From contig JARGFV010000136.1 in the NCBI GenBank assembly GCA_029210545.1, positions 1-5,677 of the forward strand: 5,677 nucleotides of DNA. Reading direction: 5' to 3'. Each line of letters begins with the position of its first letter. Within the stretch, counting starts at the first letter, position 1. The translations under genes were made by a program, and so were the position numbers. The notes beneath the pieces were generated by a model. It was not told the origin of the DNA. It searched no databases and saw only the letters and a list, made by a program, of their open reading frames with translations. This document shows, in pieces, positions 1 to 5,568 of the stretch. The DNA is from a bacterium (GTDB taxonomy: Bacteria > BMS3Abin14).

Positions 1-915
1 CACGGCGTGGAGGCCGCTGGCCGGGGCGAAAGAGTTGCCGCCGATGTACGAACCGCTGTGGCAGTCGGTGCAGAAGAGGGAACCGGTGAGCCACTCGTCG
101 GTGTCGGCCGCGAGGTGACAGGTGTTAACGCAGGTGCTGTCGGTCCCGTTGAAGGCGGAGATGCTCGTTCCGAGGACCGGGGAGGTCACCACGCTGTCGA
201 GGGTGCTGTGGCTGTTGGGGGCGTTGTTGTCGTTGTGGCAGTCCACGCAGTCACCCACACCAGAATCCACGTAGGCGGTGTTGTTGCGGTGGACGACGTG
301 GACACCCTGGACCGGCGGCCAGCCGCGTTCCAGGCGAAGGCCGGCAGCGTCGTGGCAGTCGGTGCAGGAGAGGTCCGCGGGCGAGTCCAGCCAATCCCCG
401 GCCGAGGCGGCGTCCACCAGGTGGCACGTGTTGGCGCACCCGCCGGTGCCGGCATAATACGTCCCGATCTCCGCGGCGATGGTGATGTCGCTCACCGTGG
501 GCCCGTCGATGTGGGTGGGCACCGAGGCGCTGGGCCCGCCCTTGTGGCCGTGGCAGTCGGCGCAGTCGCCGGGCACGAAGAAGTCGTTGAAAAGGTGGAT
601 GCCGTGGCGGCCGGTGGCAGGTCCGGTGGCGCTGTCGATATCAGCAGCGACACCCCCGGCGACCAAGGTCCCGCCGCCGTTGTGGCAGTCGACACAGTCG
701 AGGGTCGTTCCCGAGGTCCAGTCCCGGCCGTCCACGACGGCGTGGCAGCTGTTGGCGCAGGTTCCGAGGGTATCGTCGTAGGCGCTGACCTGGCTGGCAA
801 AGGAGGCCGACTGGTTCACGTGGCCGATGTGGTCGCCGATGTCGGCGCCGGTGCCGTGGCACGGTTCGCAGTTGCTCACGTAGACGCTGCTGGCGATGTG
901 GGGCTGGTGGGCGCC
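1..915 (-). repeat. Tandem ~100-residue triheme protein modules within the cytochrome
   Basis: Protein-level repeats, not DNA-level. Each unit begins with a G-x-H-x-x-H type motif (residues 763, 864, 966, and 1063, where the window ends), giving periods of 101, 102 and 97 residues. Each has the same order: CXXCH about 15-20 residues in, a downstream His (approximately 794, 897, 998), a CX3CH of form C-[AV]-N-[ST]-C-H, a D/E-W pair, then C-[VT]-D-C-H. First Cys positions are 778/815/836, 880/922/946 and 985/1024/1044. The fourth unit is cut after five residues, so the array continues beyond base 1. Sequence between the motifs is only loosely conserved, which suggests old duplication. Confidence 0.85.
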
Positions 916-3201
916 CGAGGTGGGCGCCGCGTCGGCCAGGTTCCCGCTGTCGATCCCGTTGTTGTGGCAGGAGGTACAGGTGGTGGTCCCGCCCCACTGG
1001 GGGGTGGTCCCGTTGTGGCACCAGACGGATGAGCAGCTTTTGTCGGCGGTGCTCCACGTACCGGTGACGACGGTCAGATCGAAAACGACATCGATCTGCC
1101 GGTCGACGTGCTGCGTCCTGTCGAAGAGGGTCCAGCCGTCAGCCGGCACGGTGTCCCGGATGGTGTCGTAGTGGCAGATCGAGCAGGTGTAGCGTCCGTG
1201 CTTGGTGGTGTCGAGGTGGCTGTTGGCTTTCGTGTCGGGCTGGGTGATCCCGCTGCCAGGTGTGTAAACGGCATCCCCGGTCCCGCCGTTAGCGTAGTCG
1301 GGGGCCCCGAACCAGAGGGTCCCGGACGCGTCGGACCGAGTGGAACCGTGGCATCCCTCGCAGTCCAGGGTCGTGCCGAGATCCCCATCCCAGGCCTGGT
1401 CGGCGACCACCTGGGTGTTGTAGCGGTCGATGCCCTGCCCGTCCCCGTGGCAGTAGAGGTTGAGGCACACGTTGGGGGTGGGGGCGGAGATGGAGTAGGA
1501 GGGGCTGACCTTGTTCGCGCCTTCCGCTATGGCGTTGGGGTTGACGGATGGGTTGAAAACCACATTGCGGAAGGTGTTCGCCGCGGTGTCGTTGTAGTGG
1601 TAATCGGAATCGGTGAAGTGGAAGTGACAATAACGGCACTCATAGTTGTACCCTCCGTCGCCGGCGTGGACGGCGTGGGGTGTTTTGTCCTCAGCCTTGA
1701 AATAACCGGAATCCGCATAACCGGTCGCGAAACCGTTTGGGCCGCCCCCGTAGTTGGCAGTTGGAGGCTGGCCGTGGCAATTAGTGCATGAATCGGTAGC
1801 CATGAAAGCCCCTTTGCTGTCGTCGTGACTGTGGCAGGAGGTGCAGTTACTCGTGTAGCCGGTCCCACCGGAATGGATGGTATTGGTCGTGGCCGGGTCC
1901 ATAAGAACTGAGATAGGACCGGGCCCACCAGCAACCCCGTGGCAGTCCGCGTTATCGCACAACCAGTTGCTGAATTCCCCAATGGCTACGCTGCTGTTGT
2001 AATAGGCTCCGACCGTCTCGTAATAGAGTGAAACCGTGGGAGAAGCCACCGGTATCGCGTTTCTCACCATAGCGATGTTGTTCCCGACCCCGTGTCCGTG
2101 GGGATCGTGGCAGTCCAGGCAGCCCACCTGATAGGAGGTCCCGCCGTGGCTGGACTTGCCCACGTGGCAGTTGGAGCTGACGCAGTTCGACAGAAGGGAC
2201 TTCGACGTCAGGTTGGAGTCGGTGGCGGCTACTGAGAAGCTCAGCCGGGCACCGGTCGGAGTGCCGTCGGGGTTGAAGTGGTCCTGGCCCGAATCGTGGC
2301 AGCTGTTACAGGTGATGTTGCTGGTAGCCTCGAAACGGCCGTGGCCGTCACCGAAGAACTCGCTGCCGGCCCTGTTGGTCGGTGGATCGTCGAAGGTGTG
2401 GCAGACGCCGCAGTCGACTGGCTCCACCCTGCTCCCGTCGGACTTTTCCAGGGTGATGAGGTCCACGTTATTGGGCGAGTTGTGGACACCGTGGCATCCA
2501 GTGGCCGCCCCGTCCGTGCTCAGGCATCCCTGCACGGTGGTCGCAAAGGAGGACCCCTCCAGAGAGATGACACTGGAGGTGTAGGAGTGCTGCATGAGAG
2601 TCGGGGTGAAGATTGTCGCCGTCTCGTGGCAGTCCCGGCAGAGCTGGTTGTTGTCGCTGTTATAGGGGGATGACCTGAGAGTCGATGAGAGAGGAAGCGC
2701 ACTGCTTCCCGTCCAGCCTACTGTGGCCGTGTTGACGCCGTGAATGTTGGGGTTGAACGGATTCGTTCCGCCGCCGACGTAAGTGACGTTGGTGTGGCAA
2801 TCCACGCAGTCGAGCTGGGTGGGCTCGGTGTCGATATCGTTGGAAGTGTAGATGTTGAAAACGGGGTGCTTGGAGAGAGAGTAATCGGAGAAGTGGTTTT
2901 TGACGCCGACCTTGTTTGTGCGGACGGCGGAGTCGTCGTGGCAGTAGATGCAGGGAAGGGAGGAACCGCTGAGCCAGCCCCCGTTCTGGACCTCCACCAT
3001 GCGCGCGTCTTTCTTAACGAGACGCGTCCCCTGGACGATCATGTCCTTGGCACCGCCGACGGCATGGCAGTCGTAACAGATTTCCTCAACCAGCTTGTGG
3101 TCGGCTATGGCCGGACCAGCGGTCAGGAACAGACAGGCCAACGCACAGAATAGGACCAAAAAACAAACGGATACGGTTGAGGCAAACCTATCCAATTCCA
3201 T
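1..3201 (-). CDS. Large secreted multiheme cytochrome c (27 heme motifs visible), 3' end outside window
   Basis: The minus-strand frame is open for 1067 codons from ATG at 3201 to base 1 with no stop, so this is an N-terminal part. Residues 1-33 look like a Sec signal peptide: a hydrophobic stretch at about 11-30, then AIA before D34. Heme motifs (first Cys) are CXXCH at residues 42, 84, 132, 188, 264, 298, 361, 453, 472, 522, 614, 673, 742, 778, 836, 880, 946, 985, 1044; CX4CH at 340, 415, 579, 723; CX3CH at 815, 922, 1024; and CX9CH at 226. All lie in one frame. I count 32 further His, enough for bis-His ligation of every heme. Pairs such as CX4CH followed by CXXCH (723/742, and CXXCHG-QPP at 472) resemble Geobacter CxxxxCH/CxxCH cytochrome families. 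The likely role is periplasmic or outer-surface electron transfer, for example extracellular metal reduction; the acceptor cannot be told. The start is supported by AGGAG 7 nt upstream. I know no specific named homologue. Confidence 0.95.
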   Translation of the reverse strand, partial: MELDRFASTVSVCFLVLFCALACLFLTAGPAIADHKLVEEICYDCHAVGGAKDMIVQGTRLVKKDARMVEVQNGGWLSGSSLPCIYCHDDSAVRTNKVGVKNHFSDYSLSKHPVFNIYTSNDIDTEPTQLDCVDCHTNVTYVGGGTNPFNPNIHGVNTATVGWTGSSALPLSSTLRSSPYNSDNNQLCRDCHETATIFTPTLMQHSYTSSVISLEGSSFATTVQGCLSTDGAATGCHGVHNSPNNVDLITLEKSDGSRVEPVDCGVCHTFDDPPTNRAGSEFFGDGHGRFEATSNITCNSCHDSGQDHFNPDGTPTGARLSFSVAATDSNLTSKSLLSNCVSSNCHVGKSSHGGTSYQVGCLDCHDPHGHGVGNNIAMVRNAIPVASPTVSLYYETVGAYYNSSVAIGEFSNWLCDNADCHGVAGGPGPISVLMDPATTNTIHSGGTGYTSNCTSCHSHDDSKGAFMATDSCTNCHGQPPTANYGGGPNGFATGYADSGYFKAEDKTPHAVHAGDGGYNYECRYCHFHFTDSDYHYNDTAANTFRNVVFNPSVNPNAIAEGANKVSPSYSISAPTPNVCLNLYCHGDGQGIDRYNTQVVADQAWDGDLGTTLDCEGCHGSTRSDASGTLWFGAPDYANGGTGDAVYTPGSGITQPDTKANSHLDTTKHGRYTCSICHYDTIRDTVPADGWTLFDRTQHVDRQIDVVFDLTVVTGTWSTADKSCSSVWCHNGTTPQWGGTTTCTSCHNNGIDSGNLADAAPTSGAHQPHIASSVYVSNCEPCHGTGADIGDHIGHVNQSASFASQVSAYDDTLGTCANSCHAVVDGRDWTSGTTLDCVDCHNGGGTLVAGGVAADIDSATGPATGRHGIHLFNDFFVPGDCADCHGHKGGPSASVPTHIDGPTVSDITIAAEIGTYYAGTGGCANTCHLVDAASAGDWLDSPADLSCTDCHDAAGLRLERGWPPVQGVHVVHRNNTAYVDSGVGDCVDCHNDNNAPNSHSTLDSVVTSPVLGTSISAFNGTDSTCVNTCHLAADTDEWLTGSLFCTDCHSGSYIGGNSFAPASGLHAV

Positions 3202-3208
3202 CAAAAGG

Positions 3209-3213
3209 CTCCT
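3209..3213 (-). promoter_or_regulatory. Shine-Dalgarno of the cytochrome gene
   Basis: AGGAG on the minus strand, 7 nt before the ATG at 3201. It fixes the start, since the signal peptide follows immediately. Confidence 0.8.
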
Positions 3214-3674: not shown

Positions 3675-3715
3675 CGTCATTCCGGACAAGGTTTTTAAAA
3701 CACTTCCGGAACGTC
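3675..3715. repeat. Left copy of dispersed inverted-repeat element
   Basis: CGTCATTCCGGACAAGG (3675-3691) is identical over 17 bases to 5215-5231. Here it is followed by a T/A-rich loop and then CTTCCGGAACGT, making an imperfect TTCCGG/CCGGAA hairpin. The right half overlaps the last codons of the mazF-like gene, and its stop codon is in the loop. It resembles the short 'CGTCATTCCGG' palindromic repeats frequent in environmental proteobacterial genomes. Confidence 0.6.
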
Positions 3716-4078
3716 ATGGGCTCCGGATACGGAATAGCGCCGTTTTCCCCAGAGCCTGTTCAACGTCTGTTCTGTGGTTGCCCTGTCATTTTCGGACAAA
3801 CTGCCGCACCTGCGCAGGACCAGGTCCACGGGCAGCGTGAACAGCTTCATCCGGACCACAGACGGGGAAGAAAGCCCGGCGTCGGACAAATCCAGGATCG
3901 GGACGTCCAACGGCCAACTGCTGTGGCGAGCGCTGGTGATCATCGCCAGGATGAGATGCCCCGCAGAGTTATTGAACCCCCTGGAATCAGAAAGGACAAG
4001 AGCGGGCCGTCGTTTCTGTTTTTTCCTTTCCGCAAAGGGGAATGGAACGACGACAACATCGAACCTTTCATAGGTCAT
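3695..4078 (-). CDS. mazF: MazF/PemK-family type II toxin (endoribonuclease)
   Basis: 127 residues, normal for the family, which cleaves mRNA at specific short sequences. Family features in order: N-terminal RFDVVVVPFPF (5-15); the basic RRPALVLS strand (23-30), whose Arg24 fits the conserved catalytic Arg; ITS (47-49), whose Thr48 fits the conserved Thr; and a C-terminal LSSPSVVR...GSLS...LNRLWG helix region. A 13-codon extension upstream is in frame, but the family N-terminus begins at the ATG at 4078, which has GAGG 6 nt before it. The start lies inside the end of the upstream antitoxin gene (11-nt overlap), suggesting translational coupling. The last ~10 residues and the TAA lie in a repeat element, so the natural C-terminus may have been replaced. 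Cleavage specificity cannot be read from the sequence. Confidence 0.9.
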   Translation of the reverse strand: MTYERFDVVVVPFPFAERKKQKRRPALVLSDSRGFNNSAGHLILAMITSARHSSWPLDVPILDLSDAGLSSPSVVRMKLFTLPVDLVLRRCGSLSENDRATTEQTLNRLWGKRRYSVSGAHDVPEVF

Positions 4079-4301
4079 GGAACGCCTCGTCGTCTTCCCG
4101 GGACGACCATTCGCCAAGGGTTTCCATCACAGCACGGGTATAGGCCAGGTCTGCCGGGAGGGCCTTGCGTAAAACCACACCTTCCTTTGTTTCCTCGAAG
4201 CAGACCACGTCCCCTTTGCCAAGGCCCAGCTTCTTTCTGACGGCTGCGGGGATGGTCGCCTGGTACTTCGTCGTCAGCCTGGATGTCGCCAGTTTCTTCA
4301 T
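4068..4301 (-). CDS. AbrB/SpoVT-type antitoxin partner of the MazF-like toxin
   Basis: 77 residues. Residues about 5-45 form an AbrB-type swapped-hairpin DNA-binding domain: SRLTTKYQATIPAAVRKKLG (7-26), then a LGKGDVVCFEE strand. The acidic C-terminal tail (EWSSREDDEAFHDL, 64-77) is typical of the segment that wraps and neutralises a MazF/PemK toxin. It is the first gene of a leftward two-gene operon and should bind its own promoter as well as the toxin. The start is supported by GAGGTGA 4-7 nt upstream. MazE itself has this fold, but this protein is closer to generic AbrB-family antitoxins, so no symbol is given. Confidence 0.9.
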   Translation of the reverse strand: MKKLATSRLTTKYQATIPAAVRKKLGLGKGDVVCFEETKEGVVLRKALPADLAYTRAVMETLGEWSSREDDEAFHDL

Positions 4302-4429: not shown

Positions 4430-4458
4430 TTGAAAAGGTTTCCGAAAGAGAATATAAT
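4430..4458 (+). promoter_or_regulatory. Sigma-70-type promoter of the vapBC operon
   Basis: TTGAAA (4430-4435) and TATAAT (4453-4458) are exactly 17 nt apart, matching 5/6 and 6/6 of the consensus. The start of transcription would fall near 4465, inside the palindrome that follows. Confidence 0.75.
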
Positions 4459-4496
4459 TCATTTCGTGAGTCATGCTGACTCACAAAATGAATTAT
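4454..4496. promoter_or_regulatory. Long palindromic operator of vapBC
   Basis: Arms at 4454-4473 and 4477-4496 pair over 20 bases with a single mismatch, around the loop TGC. The core is GTGAGTCA/TGACTCAC. The left arm overlaps the -10 box and the right arm reaches the ATG at 4495, so a bound VapB or VapBC complex would block transcription. The position and symmetry are typical of type II TA autoregulation. If transcription starts upstream of it, the RNA would also form a strong hairpin. Confidence 0.7.
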
Positions 4497-4512
4497 GGAG
4501 GTGGCAGATACT

Positions 4513-4770
4513 TTGCATTTGACTATACGGGGTATGGGAAAAGAAGTGGAAGAGGCGATCCGCCGAATGGCCCGCGAAAAGGGGATCAGCTTGAATAAAG
4601 CCGTCATCAGGATGCTGGAAAAGGCCATAGGCCGATCAGGTTCGTCCGGAAAACCACCAATACATGAGGAACTGGACCGTTTTTCCGGCGCCTGGTCCCC
4701 CGAGGAAGCAGCCGAGATCGAGGGCAGTTTGTCCGGTACCCGGACAGTGGACGAGGAGCTCTGGTCATGA
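4513..4770 (+). CDS. vapB: Ribbon-helix-helix VapB/FitA-type antitoxin
   Basis: About 85 residues from the TTG at 4513. A short beta strand (HLTIRG) is followed by helix KEVEEAIRRMAREKG, a turn, and helix SLNKAVIRMLEKAIG: the Arc/MetJ ribbon-helix-helix fold that binds DNA as a dimer. The C-terminal part (ELDRFSGAWSPEEAAEI...VDEELW) matches the acidic, Trp-bearing tail by which such antitoxins occupy the groove of a PIN toxin. Start choice: an in-frame ATG at 4495 would add MEVADT but has no Shine-Dalgarno and sits in the palindrome. TTG at 4513 is preceded by GGAGG (4497-4501, spacing 11) and puts the beta strand at the very N-terminus, as is usual in the family. ATG 4495 remains possible. 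It overlaps vapC by ATGA. Confidence 0.88.
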   Translation: MHLTIRGMGKEVEEAIRRMAREKGISLNKAVIRMLEKAIGRSGSSGKPPIHEELDRFSGAWSPEEAAEIEGSLSGTRTVDEELWS

Positions 4771-5174
4771 ACCAGGGACCCGCAAGGATCCTGCTGGACA
4801 CCTCCGCCTACTCGGCTCTCTTCCGTGGGGATGAGCAGGTCAGGGTTATCCTCCAGGAGGTCGAGGAGGTCGCCCTGAATCCGGTGATCCTGGGCGAACT
4901 GCTCGGAGGGTTTGCAGGTGGAATCTACGAAAAAAGAAACAGGGGACTGATCAAGGAGTTCCTATCCACGCCACGCGTCCGTGTTTATCCTATTGACGCC
5001 GACACCTCGGAACGTTATGCCGCCGTCTGGTTCCATCTTCGCCGCCAGGGTACTCCCATCCCCACCAACGACCTGTGGATCGCCGCTTCTGCCATGCAGC
5101 ACGGCCTGGCGGTGCTGACGGCAGACAGGCATTTCCTGAAGGTCCCACAGGTTCTGACCTGGATCCTGAACTGA
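4767..5174 (+). CDS. vapC: VapC PIN-domain ribonuclease toxin
   Basis: 135 residues, normal for VapC. The four acidic residues that bind metal in PIN domains are all present: D11 in LLDTSAYSAL, E44 in VILGELLGG, D102 in IPTNDLWIAA, and D120 in VLTADRHF, so the nuclease should be active. VapC toxins cleave tRNA or rRNA at specific sites, and the target here is unknown. Its ATG overlaps the vapB stop (ATGA), with GAGGAG (4753-4758) 8 nt upstream, so the two are translationally coupled. The sequence is closest in character to the VapC/FitB group paired with ribbon-helix-helix antitoxins. Confidence 0.95.
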   Translation: MNQGPARILLDTSAYSALFRGDEQVRVILQEVEEVALNPVILGELLGGFAGGIYEKRNRGLIKEFLSTPRVRVYPIDADTSERYAAVWFHLRRQGTPIPTNDLWIAASAMQHGLAVLTADRHFLKVPQVLTWILN

Positions 5175-5349: not shown

Positions 5350-5380
5350 TACTGGCGGGAACGCCGCCTCCCAGGCGCTG

Positions 5381-5568
5381 TCACGCGACCCAACCTCACT
5401 GGATTTTTACCGCCAAGCATGCCAGGAACGCCAAGAAAGGCAACAAACGAGATCAGGGTATAGCCGCGGTCATGCGACCCCACTTCCCTGAAATTTACCG
5501 CCAAGCACGCCAAGAACGCCAAGAAAAGCAACAAACAGGATGCAGGGTACAAACTCCGTCATATGACC
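5381..5568. repeat. 89-bp direct tandem repeat, two copies plus a partial third
   Basis: Units are 5381-5469 and 5470-5558; a third begins at 5559 (TCATATGACC) and fades after about 10-16 bases. The units agree at most positions, with small internal shifts. Each carries a GC-rich core of short GCCAAG sub-repeats (ACCGCCAAGCAC, GCCAAGAACGCCAAGAAA), a motif familiar from intergenic repeats of many deltaproteobacteria. No ORF here is credible: frames over it are by-products of the repeat. Confidence 0.8.

Follow-up and report, generated by a model that had tools for sequence, protein, structure and literature searches.

Tandem CX3CH triheme units in a probable giant secreted cytochrome, a putative variant of the TIGR01904-type unit

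Here, we report three tandem triheme units in a multiheme c-type cytochrome gene truncated by a contig edge. TIGR01904/PF09698 describes a triheme unit in its CX4CH form; we class each of the three units as a CX3CH subtype of it, and as no plain member of that family. We consider it likely that the units are c7-like triheme modules, set in tandem in a giant modular cytochrome that would act as a long conductor and store for extracellular electron transfer. Our verdict is that the unit itself is a variant of the TIGR01904-type triheme unit, and that its length-variable middle heme is the part most deserving of pursuit. Very large cytochromes are thought to move electrons between cells and minerals, and their fast-diverging repeats hamper annotation.

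The stretch of DNA analyzed (the window; 5,677 nucleotides, G000:C136:1-5677) carries the gene in an open frame that spans positions 1 to 3204 of the minus strand. Residues are numbered as in its translation (P0001), where residue 1 is the TTG at 3204. The features of the gene are as follows.

3209 to 3213, minus strand: probable ribosome binding site AGGAG, read in the sequence 7 nt upstream of the ATG
1 to 3201, minus strand: gene for a predicted secreted multiheme c-type cytochrome; ATG start at 3201, 1,068 residues visible, open at the contig edge
3103 to 3201, minus strand: likely signal peptide, residues 2 to 34, read from the sequence with putative cleavage after ...PAIA and before DHKL
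2491 to 2526, minus strand: CX9CH motif CLSTDGAATGCH, residues 227 to 238, invisible to CX2-4CH counting
1348 to 1677, minus strand: CX4CH triheme unit, residues 510 to 619, of TIGR01904/PF09698 type
964 to 1218, minus strand: CX4CH triheme unit, residues 663 to 747; its counterparts in the paralogs G000:C3 and G003:C40 are CX3CH
613 to 915, minus strand: CX3CH triheme unit 1, residues 764 to 864 (101 residues); HxxH, CEPCH, H795, CANSCH, W, CVDCH
307 to 612, minus strand: CX3CH triheme unit 2, residues 865 to 966 (102 residues); HxxH, CADCH, THID, CANTCH, W, CTDCH
16 to 306, minus strand: CX3CH triheme unit 3, residues 967 to 1063 (97 residues); HxxH, CVDCH, SH, CVNTCH, W, CTDCH
1 to 15, minus strand: first residues of a further unit (GLHAV), truncated where the contig ends; the ortholog has a CX6CH triad here

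Judging from its sequence, the encoded protein is probably a very large secreted cytochrome in which electrons pass down a line of hemes. The visible part contains 27 C-Xn-CH motifs (19 CX2, 3 CX3, 4 CX4, and 1 CX9), the pairing of which leaves no unpaired Cys in the mature protein; paralogs with a matching N-terminal region have CX8CH or CX9CH at the position of the CX9CH motif. Searched whole, the protein matched Pfam PF14522 (Cytochrome_C7; 6e-19), PF22113 (MtrC/MtrF domains II/IV; 1e-15), and PF09698 (GSu_C4xC__C2xCH), as well as NCBIfam TIGR01904 (3e-16), and its scores against TIGR01904 (58.9 bits) and PF09698 (25.0 bits) were both over the curated cutoffs (27 and 21.7 bits, respectively). 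The gene is under purifying selection: the ortholog G003:C66 is 72% identical across 1,066 codons (dN/dS, 0.17) and keeps 122 of the 125 C, H, and W residues that follow residue 40. With the ortholog sequence as the query, the C-terminal remainder of the protein was not found in the rest of the genome, and a plasmid collection gave no match.

Positions 3695 to 4301 of the window (minus strand) hold a MazF/PemK-type toxin gene (PF02452) with an overlapping MazE/PrlF-type antitoxin gene upstream, and positions 4495 to 5174 (plus strand) hold genes for a FitA-like ribbon-helix-helix antitoxin (a weak match) and a PIN-domain toxin. Directly before the FitA-like/PIN operon lies a near-perfect 20-bp inverted repeat (4454 to 4496) that overlaps a TATAAT-like hexamer and has the layout of a putative self-regulating toxin-antitoxin operator. 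A stretch like accgccaagcacgccaagaacgccaagaa is present twice at 5380 to 5535, with a 9-bp tandem CGCCAAGAA at 5499 to 5525, and looks like a dispersed intergenic repeat.

Units 1 to 3 form the C-terminal end of the visible protein, within a longer chain that runs off the contig. They start at G764, G865, and G967, and each has the order HxxH-CXXCH-H-CX3CH-(D/E)W-CXXCH, with leads GAHQPH, GRHGIH, and GVHVVH and D/E-W pairs RDW, GDW, and DEW, respectively, at about 33 residues per heme. An earlier note on this DNA had described three units of ~100 residues with the motif order CXXCH, CX3CH, CXXCH and a spacing of 101, 102, and 97 residues, and all of the features that it listed are present on the minus strand. 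Aligned with each other, the units gave pairwise scores of 107 to 122, against means of 36 to 53 (standard deviation, about 15) for shuffles holding every C and H in place; because none of 500 such shuffles scored as high for any pair, the units are alike beyond their heme motifs, and they are mutually homologous. The note also saw a fourth unit starting at the edge. A further unit does start there (ASGLHAV), at G1064, but it is probably not of the CX3CH kind, since the edge sequence opens a CXXCH-CX6CH-CXXCH triad in the ortholog, and in the paralog G000:C3 the corresponding GLHAV stands at the head of a CX13CH triad.

Further copies of the CX3CH unit are present in paralogs and in relatives. 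The relative in the same genome (G000:C3) has at least 2,535 residues and 60 CX2-4CH motifs, and those in G003 have 3,325 residues (84 motifs), 2,201 residues (58), and 1,885 residues (35); the heme numbers are lower bounds, as C3 and the G003 relatives except the 1,885-residue one are cut by contig ends. The longest of these, G003:C40 (L024, 1 to 9975, minus strand; at least 3,325 residues), has CX7CH, CX8CH, and CX13CH motifs besides its 84 CX2-4CH motifs and is open at the contig end, with a terminal array of CX4CH triads. Two genomes share a similar gene order of a small gene, a 15-heme cytochrome, and a giant cytochrome (L023, 7786 to 11894, and L024, 10115 to 14271; both minus strand), and the small gene in G000 combines a zf-HC2 zinc finger with a CBM48/AMPK-type domain.

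The phylum of the window organism was sampled as 12 genomes of one family, outside which the CX3CH unit has a scattered distribution and is rarely met. Matches at E < 1e-13 occurred in 2 of 297 genomes (G041 and G166) of the phylum to which the organism of L003 belongs, and a domain-wide sample of about 370 genomes added one more (G595). Saprospiraceae matches were rejected as relatives; they look like matches of motif composition, their frames (L004) hold CXXCH-type repeats only, and the unit profile found nothing in the two such genomes searched. No meaningful relative emerged from the PDB when its sequences were searched with each of three kinds of query: the three units, the whole protein, and the CX4CH profile.

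How such chains grow can be read in G166:C1 (L071, 3 to 11240, minus strand), a cytochrome of at least 3,746 residues with five consecutive CX3CH triheme units. Three of its units are 61 to 75% identical in protein, and a 288-bp DNA tandem repeat detected with Tandem Repeats Finder corresponds to one 96-residue unit, which is direct evidence of chain growth via duplication of a single triheme unit. A tree computed without the middle spacer (102 units, 90 columns), of which we use only starred or named nodes because 45 of its 99 inner branches are unresolved, grouped each window unit with counterparts in other proteins and not with its neighbor (starred nodes, 97 to 99); the duplications in the window protein are thus old. 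Where the earlier note proposed a modular heme wire lengthened by duplication, the modular duplication is borne out by the homologous units, their recurrence, and the G166:C1 array, and a continuous heme wire is plausible.

The note further recognized no named domain in the unit. This holds for the exact CX3CH form, for which domain-model searches with the units found no existing model, but not for the wider kinship with the TIGR01904/PF09698 triad. An hhalign comparison of 15 CX3CH units (from G000, G003, and the Deltaproteobacteria MAG of L003) with 14 CX4CH units from relatives gave a probability of 97 and an E value of 6.2e-11 over 76 of 80 columns. Invariant in the 15 are HxxH, CXXCH, C-x-N-x-C-H, W, and CXXCH; common to the 14 are HxxH, CXXCH, a lone His, Tyr, CX4CH, W, and CXXCH. 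Both types have the conserved W and an H-[ILM]-[DN] past motif 1, and the commonest middle motif of either type has Asn two residues upstream of the second Cys. TIGR01904 hits 13 of the 14 CX4CH units and 11 of the 15 CX3CH units (E ≤ 0.01 for the CX3CH units). Taken singly, the window units reached 25.0, 20.9, and 14.7 bits against TIGR01904 and E values of 0.003 to 0.007 against PF14522, all under the curated cutoffs, and are for this reason called a subtype and not plain members. Against a profile built solely from CX4CH triads of other proteins, unit 1 reached 29 bits and unit 2 reached 31 bits, exceeding all 20 shuffles that preserve C, H, and W; unit 3, at 17.8 bits, stayed within its shuffles (maximum, 25.7). 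CX4CH followed by CXXCH, as in the TIGR01904/PF09698 domain, occurs in two triads elsewhere in the window protein and is absent from units 1 to 3, which carry CX3CH.

Spacer lengths were counted by assigning to each CH the closest Cys still available, which over the collected chains gave 512 CX2, 56 CX3, 95 CX4, and 24 CX5 to CX13 motifs. Most long relatives of the window protein are left with no unpaired Cys, so chance pairing is unlikely in them. Motifs other than CXXCH are flanked by two CXXCH in 162 cases (94 in shuffles; maximum, 118). From one odd motif to the next, the distance is exactly three hemes in 118 of 159 cases (shuffle mean, 23; maximum, 39). Units with spacers from CX3 to CX13 coexist in single chains of up to 84 or more hemes, and orthologous units can differ in spacer: C3 1875 (CX3) and C40 1859 (CX4) are united with a support of 98, and window 674 and C66 698 (both CX4) group with C3 713 and C40 708 (both CX3) with a support of 96. 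By position and spacing, C3 1676 (CX8CH) occupies the place of a CX3CH unit in C40, and CX3, CX6, CX8, and CX13 forms all occur in a subfamily marked by W-x-R-x-W downstream of the middle motif. The separate lineage of G595, looked at afterwards, has the period of three again (2-6-2 2-3-2 2-9-2 2-5-2 2-4-2 2-4-2 2-7-2), with some Cys unpaired. These patterns suggest that the middle heme is almost always the sole site of the triad with a length-free Cys-Cys spacer (3 to 13 residues), with CX3CH at the short end.

Each CX3CH unit provides six His, namely, two in HxxH, one or more in the stretch from motif 1 to motif 2 (found in 29 of 29 CX3CH triads and 49 of 49 CX4CH triads), and three in the heme motifs. 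By ligand count only, these would suffice for three bis-His hemes per unit, as in cytochrome c7. The axial roles of the His residues of PpcA are established. In the putative arrangement of heme occupancy and axial ligation, CXXCH, CX3CH, and CXXCH would provide the proximal His, and HxxH and the THID-type His would provide the distal ones. For unit 1, the ortholog has lost H792 and retained H795, which points to H795 as the ligand.

We propose that CX4CH (TIGR01904 type) and CX3CH triads side by side compose a giant secreted chain. The cytochrome would most likely sit outside the inner membrane as an electron conductor and store for extracellular electron transfer, with electrons hopping from heme to heme within a triad and then on to the next. 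At about 33 residues per heme and with six His apiece, the secreted triads fit a closely packed bis-His heme chain with putative heme contact from triad to triad. Counting against this reading, the window shows no porin or other conduit gene. The giant relatives adjoin beta-propeller and Ig-like secreted proteins, and these neighbors suggest a cell-surface role of the giant cytochromes. AlphaFold models from shallow alignments were poor, with a mean pLDDT of 46 and a pTM of 0.26 for unit 2 (10 sequences) and of 29 and 0.17 for units 1 to 3 (3 sequences).

Three other readings were weighed. A protein that works chiefly as a capacitor storing electrons, or as a redox coat on the surface, and not as a directional long-range wire, would suit the very high heme number, the absence of partner genes from the window, and the description of GSU1996, the best studied tandem triheme protein, as a capacitor (PMC10138318). 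We think this main role somewhat unlikely; storage and conduction are compatible, the sequence would permit conduction, storage, or both, and the beta-propeller/Ig-like neighbors fit a cell surface and do not separate wire from store. A reading as conductor and store is preferred.

The two remaining readings concern what the units are. It seems improbable that the CX3CH units are a separate triheme family, in which the HxxH/CXXCH/CXnCH/W/CXXCH layout arose independently and the likeness comes through shared C, H, and W. Single units do fall under the family cutoffs, unit 3 does not rise above its own shuffles, and CX3CH units with C-x-N-x-C-H form one tree group of 21 (support, 88); however, the profile-profile match (E = 6e-11) extends across nearly the full unit, the W, H-[ILM]-[DN], and Asn two before the second middle Cys are common to both types, and at starred nodes a single orthologous unit is represented by both its X3 and its X4 version. 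Even less credence goes to a decaying middle motif, with heme-free CX3CH sites and diheme units. CX3CH is a rare spacing at which heme attachment is a prediction, but its Cys and His are retained in the ortholog (with 122 of 125 C, H, and W kept and a dN/dS of 0.17), the sixth His for a third heme is retained in the unit, and C-x-N-x-C-H recurs across separate lineages. We keep to three hemes per unit and to kinship with the CX4CH triads.

For giant modular cytochromes as a whole class, we put forward a tentative proposal, about as apt to fail as to hold: the middle heme may be evolvable, its spacer sliding between 3 and 13 residues at homologous positions while CXXCH is retained at the two outer hemes; the change in length might adjust potential or lay a heme edge open to side contacts. 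Counts of CX2-4CH or CX2-5CH would then miss many of these hemes, and maturation enzymes would have to tolerate the range of spacers. Published heme counts use CX2-4CH (PMC5566968, PMC10734462) or CX2-5CH (PMC12545173), and a literature search, with most subscription papers outside its coverage, found no description of a period-three rule for the middle spacer. A triheme unit whose outer pair is fixed and whose middle heme varies in spacer length would give a parsing rule for giant cytochromes, recovering hemes overlooked by standard motif counts, and the ~100-residue module is a handle on spacer length versus heme attachment and potential.

Genome G000 holds one CcmF locus (System I) and two ResB (CcsB) loci (L085, L086, and L087; G000:C96, C13, and C12). 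These are apparently three cytochrome c maturation systems, perhaps with a division of labor by heme motif spacing, and the genome could thus encode machinery that handles unusual spacers.

Among known systems, TIGR01904/PF09698, the models of which span the second half of the triad only, has the same motif order, W before the last CXXCH, N-x-C-H middle, and tandem use per chain as the units reported here. The units differ in a middle motif that is one residue shorter (C-x-N-x-C-H) and in a lead (G-x-H-x-x-H...N-x-x-Y-V) and tail ((G)DW...L-x-C-[TV]-D-C-H) of their own. Cytochrome c7 PpcA (PF14522) and the units have in common the plan HxxH, CXXCH, lone His, CXXCH, CXXCH with six His, the units having CX3CH as the middle motif and a Trp in addition. 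Because the direct profile comparison with PpcA was not significant (hhalign probability, 7), we describe the units as built like cytochrome c7, with what appears to be the same ligand plan only, and not as a member of it.

Proteins of the GSU1996 type (TIGR04257 nanowire_3heme; four c7-like domains) likewise repeat a triheme domain with three hemes per about 100 residues, and in the GSU1996 crystal the tandem triheme domains form a heme wire with hemes 3 to 5 Å apart (PMC10138318). GSU1996 has one His-Met heme per domain and 12 hemes, whereas the window units have enough His for three bis-His hemes and the relatives here have 58 to 84 hemes or more. TIGR04257 had no match listed for the window CX3CH units or the 15-unit CX3CH set and hit one CX4CH unit under the cutoff (0.0027).

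The PCC3 extracellular cytochromes of iron oxidizers are also huge, repetitive, Ser/Thr/Gly/Ala-rich multiheme chains, with 10 to 63 motifs counted as CX2-4CH (PMC5566968, PMC10734462). The likeness is by description; no PCC3 porin or five-helix inner-membrane protein was seen in the window, where the downstream side of the gene is off the contig, or among the scanned flanking genes of relatives. MtrA has about 33 residues per heme, a ratio that has been read as a sign of a wire (PMC5566968). The OmcZ nanowire likewise has a noncanonical wide heme motif, a single CX14CH in which the extra residues form a surface loop (PMC11208441). OmcZ is an octaheme filament subunit, whereas here the repeated triad has its wide motifs (CX5 to CX13) at the middle heme and at no other.
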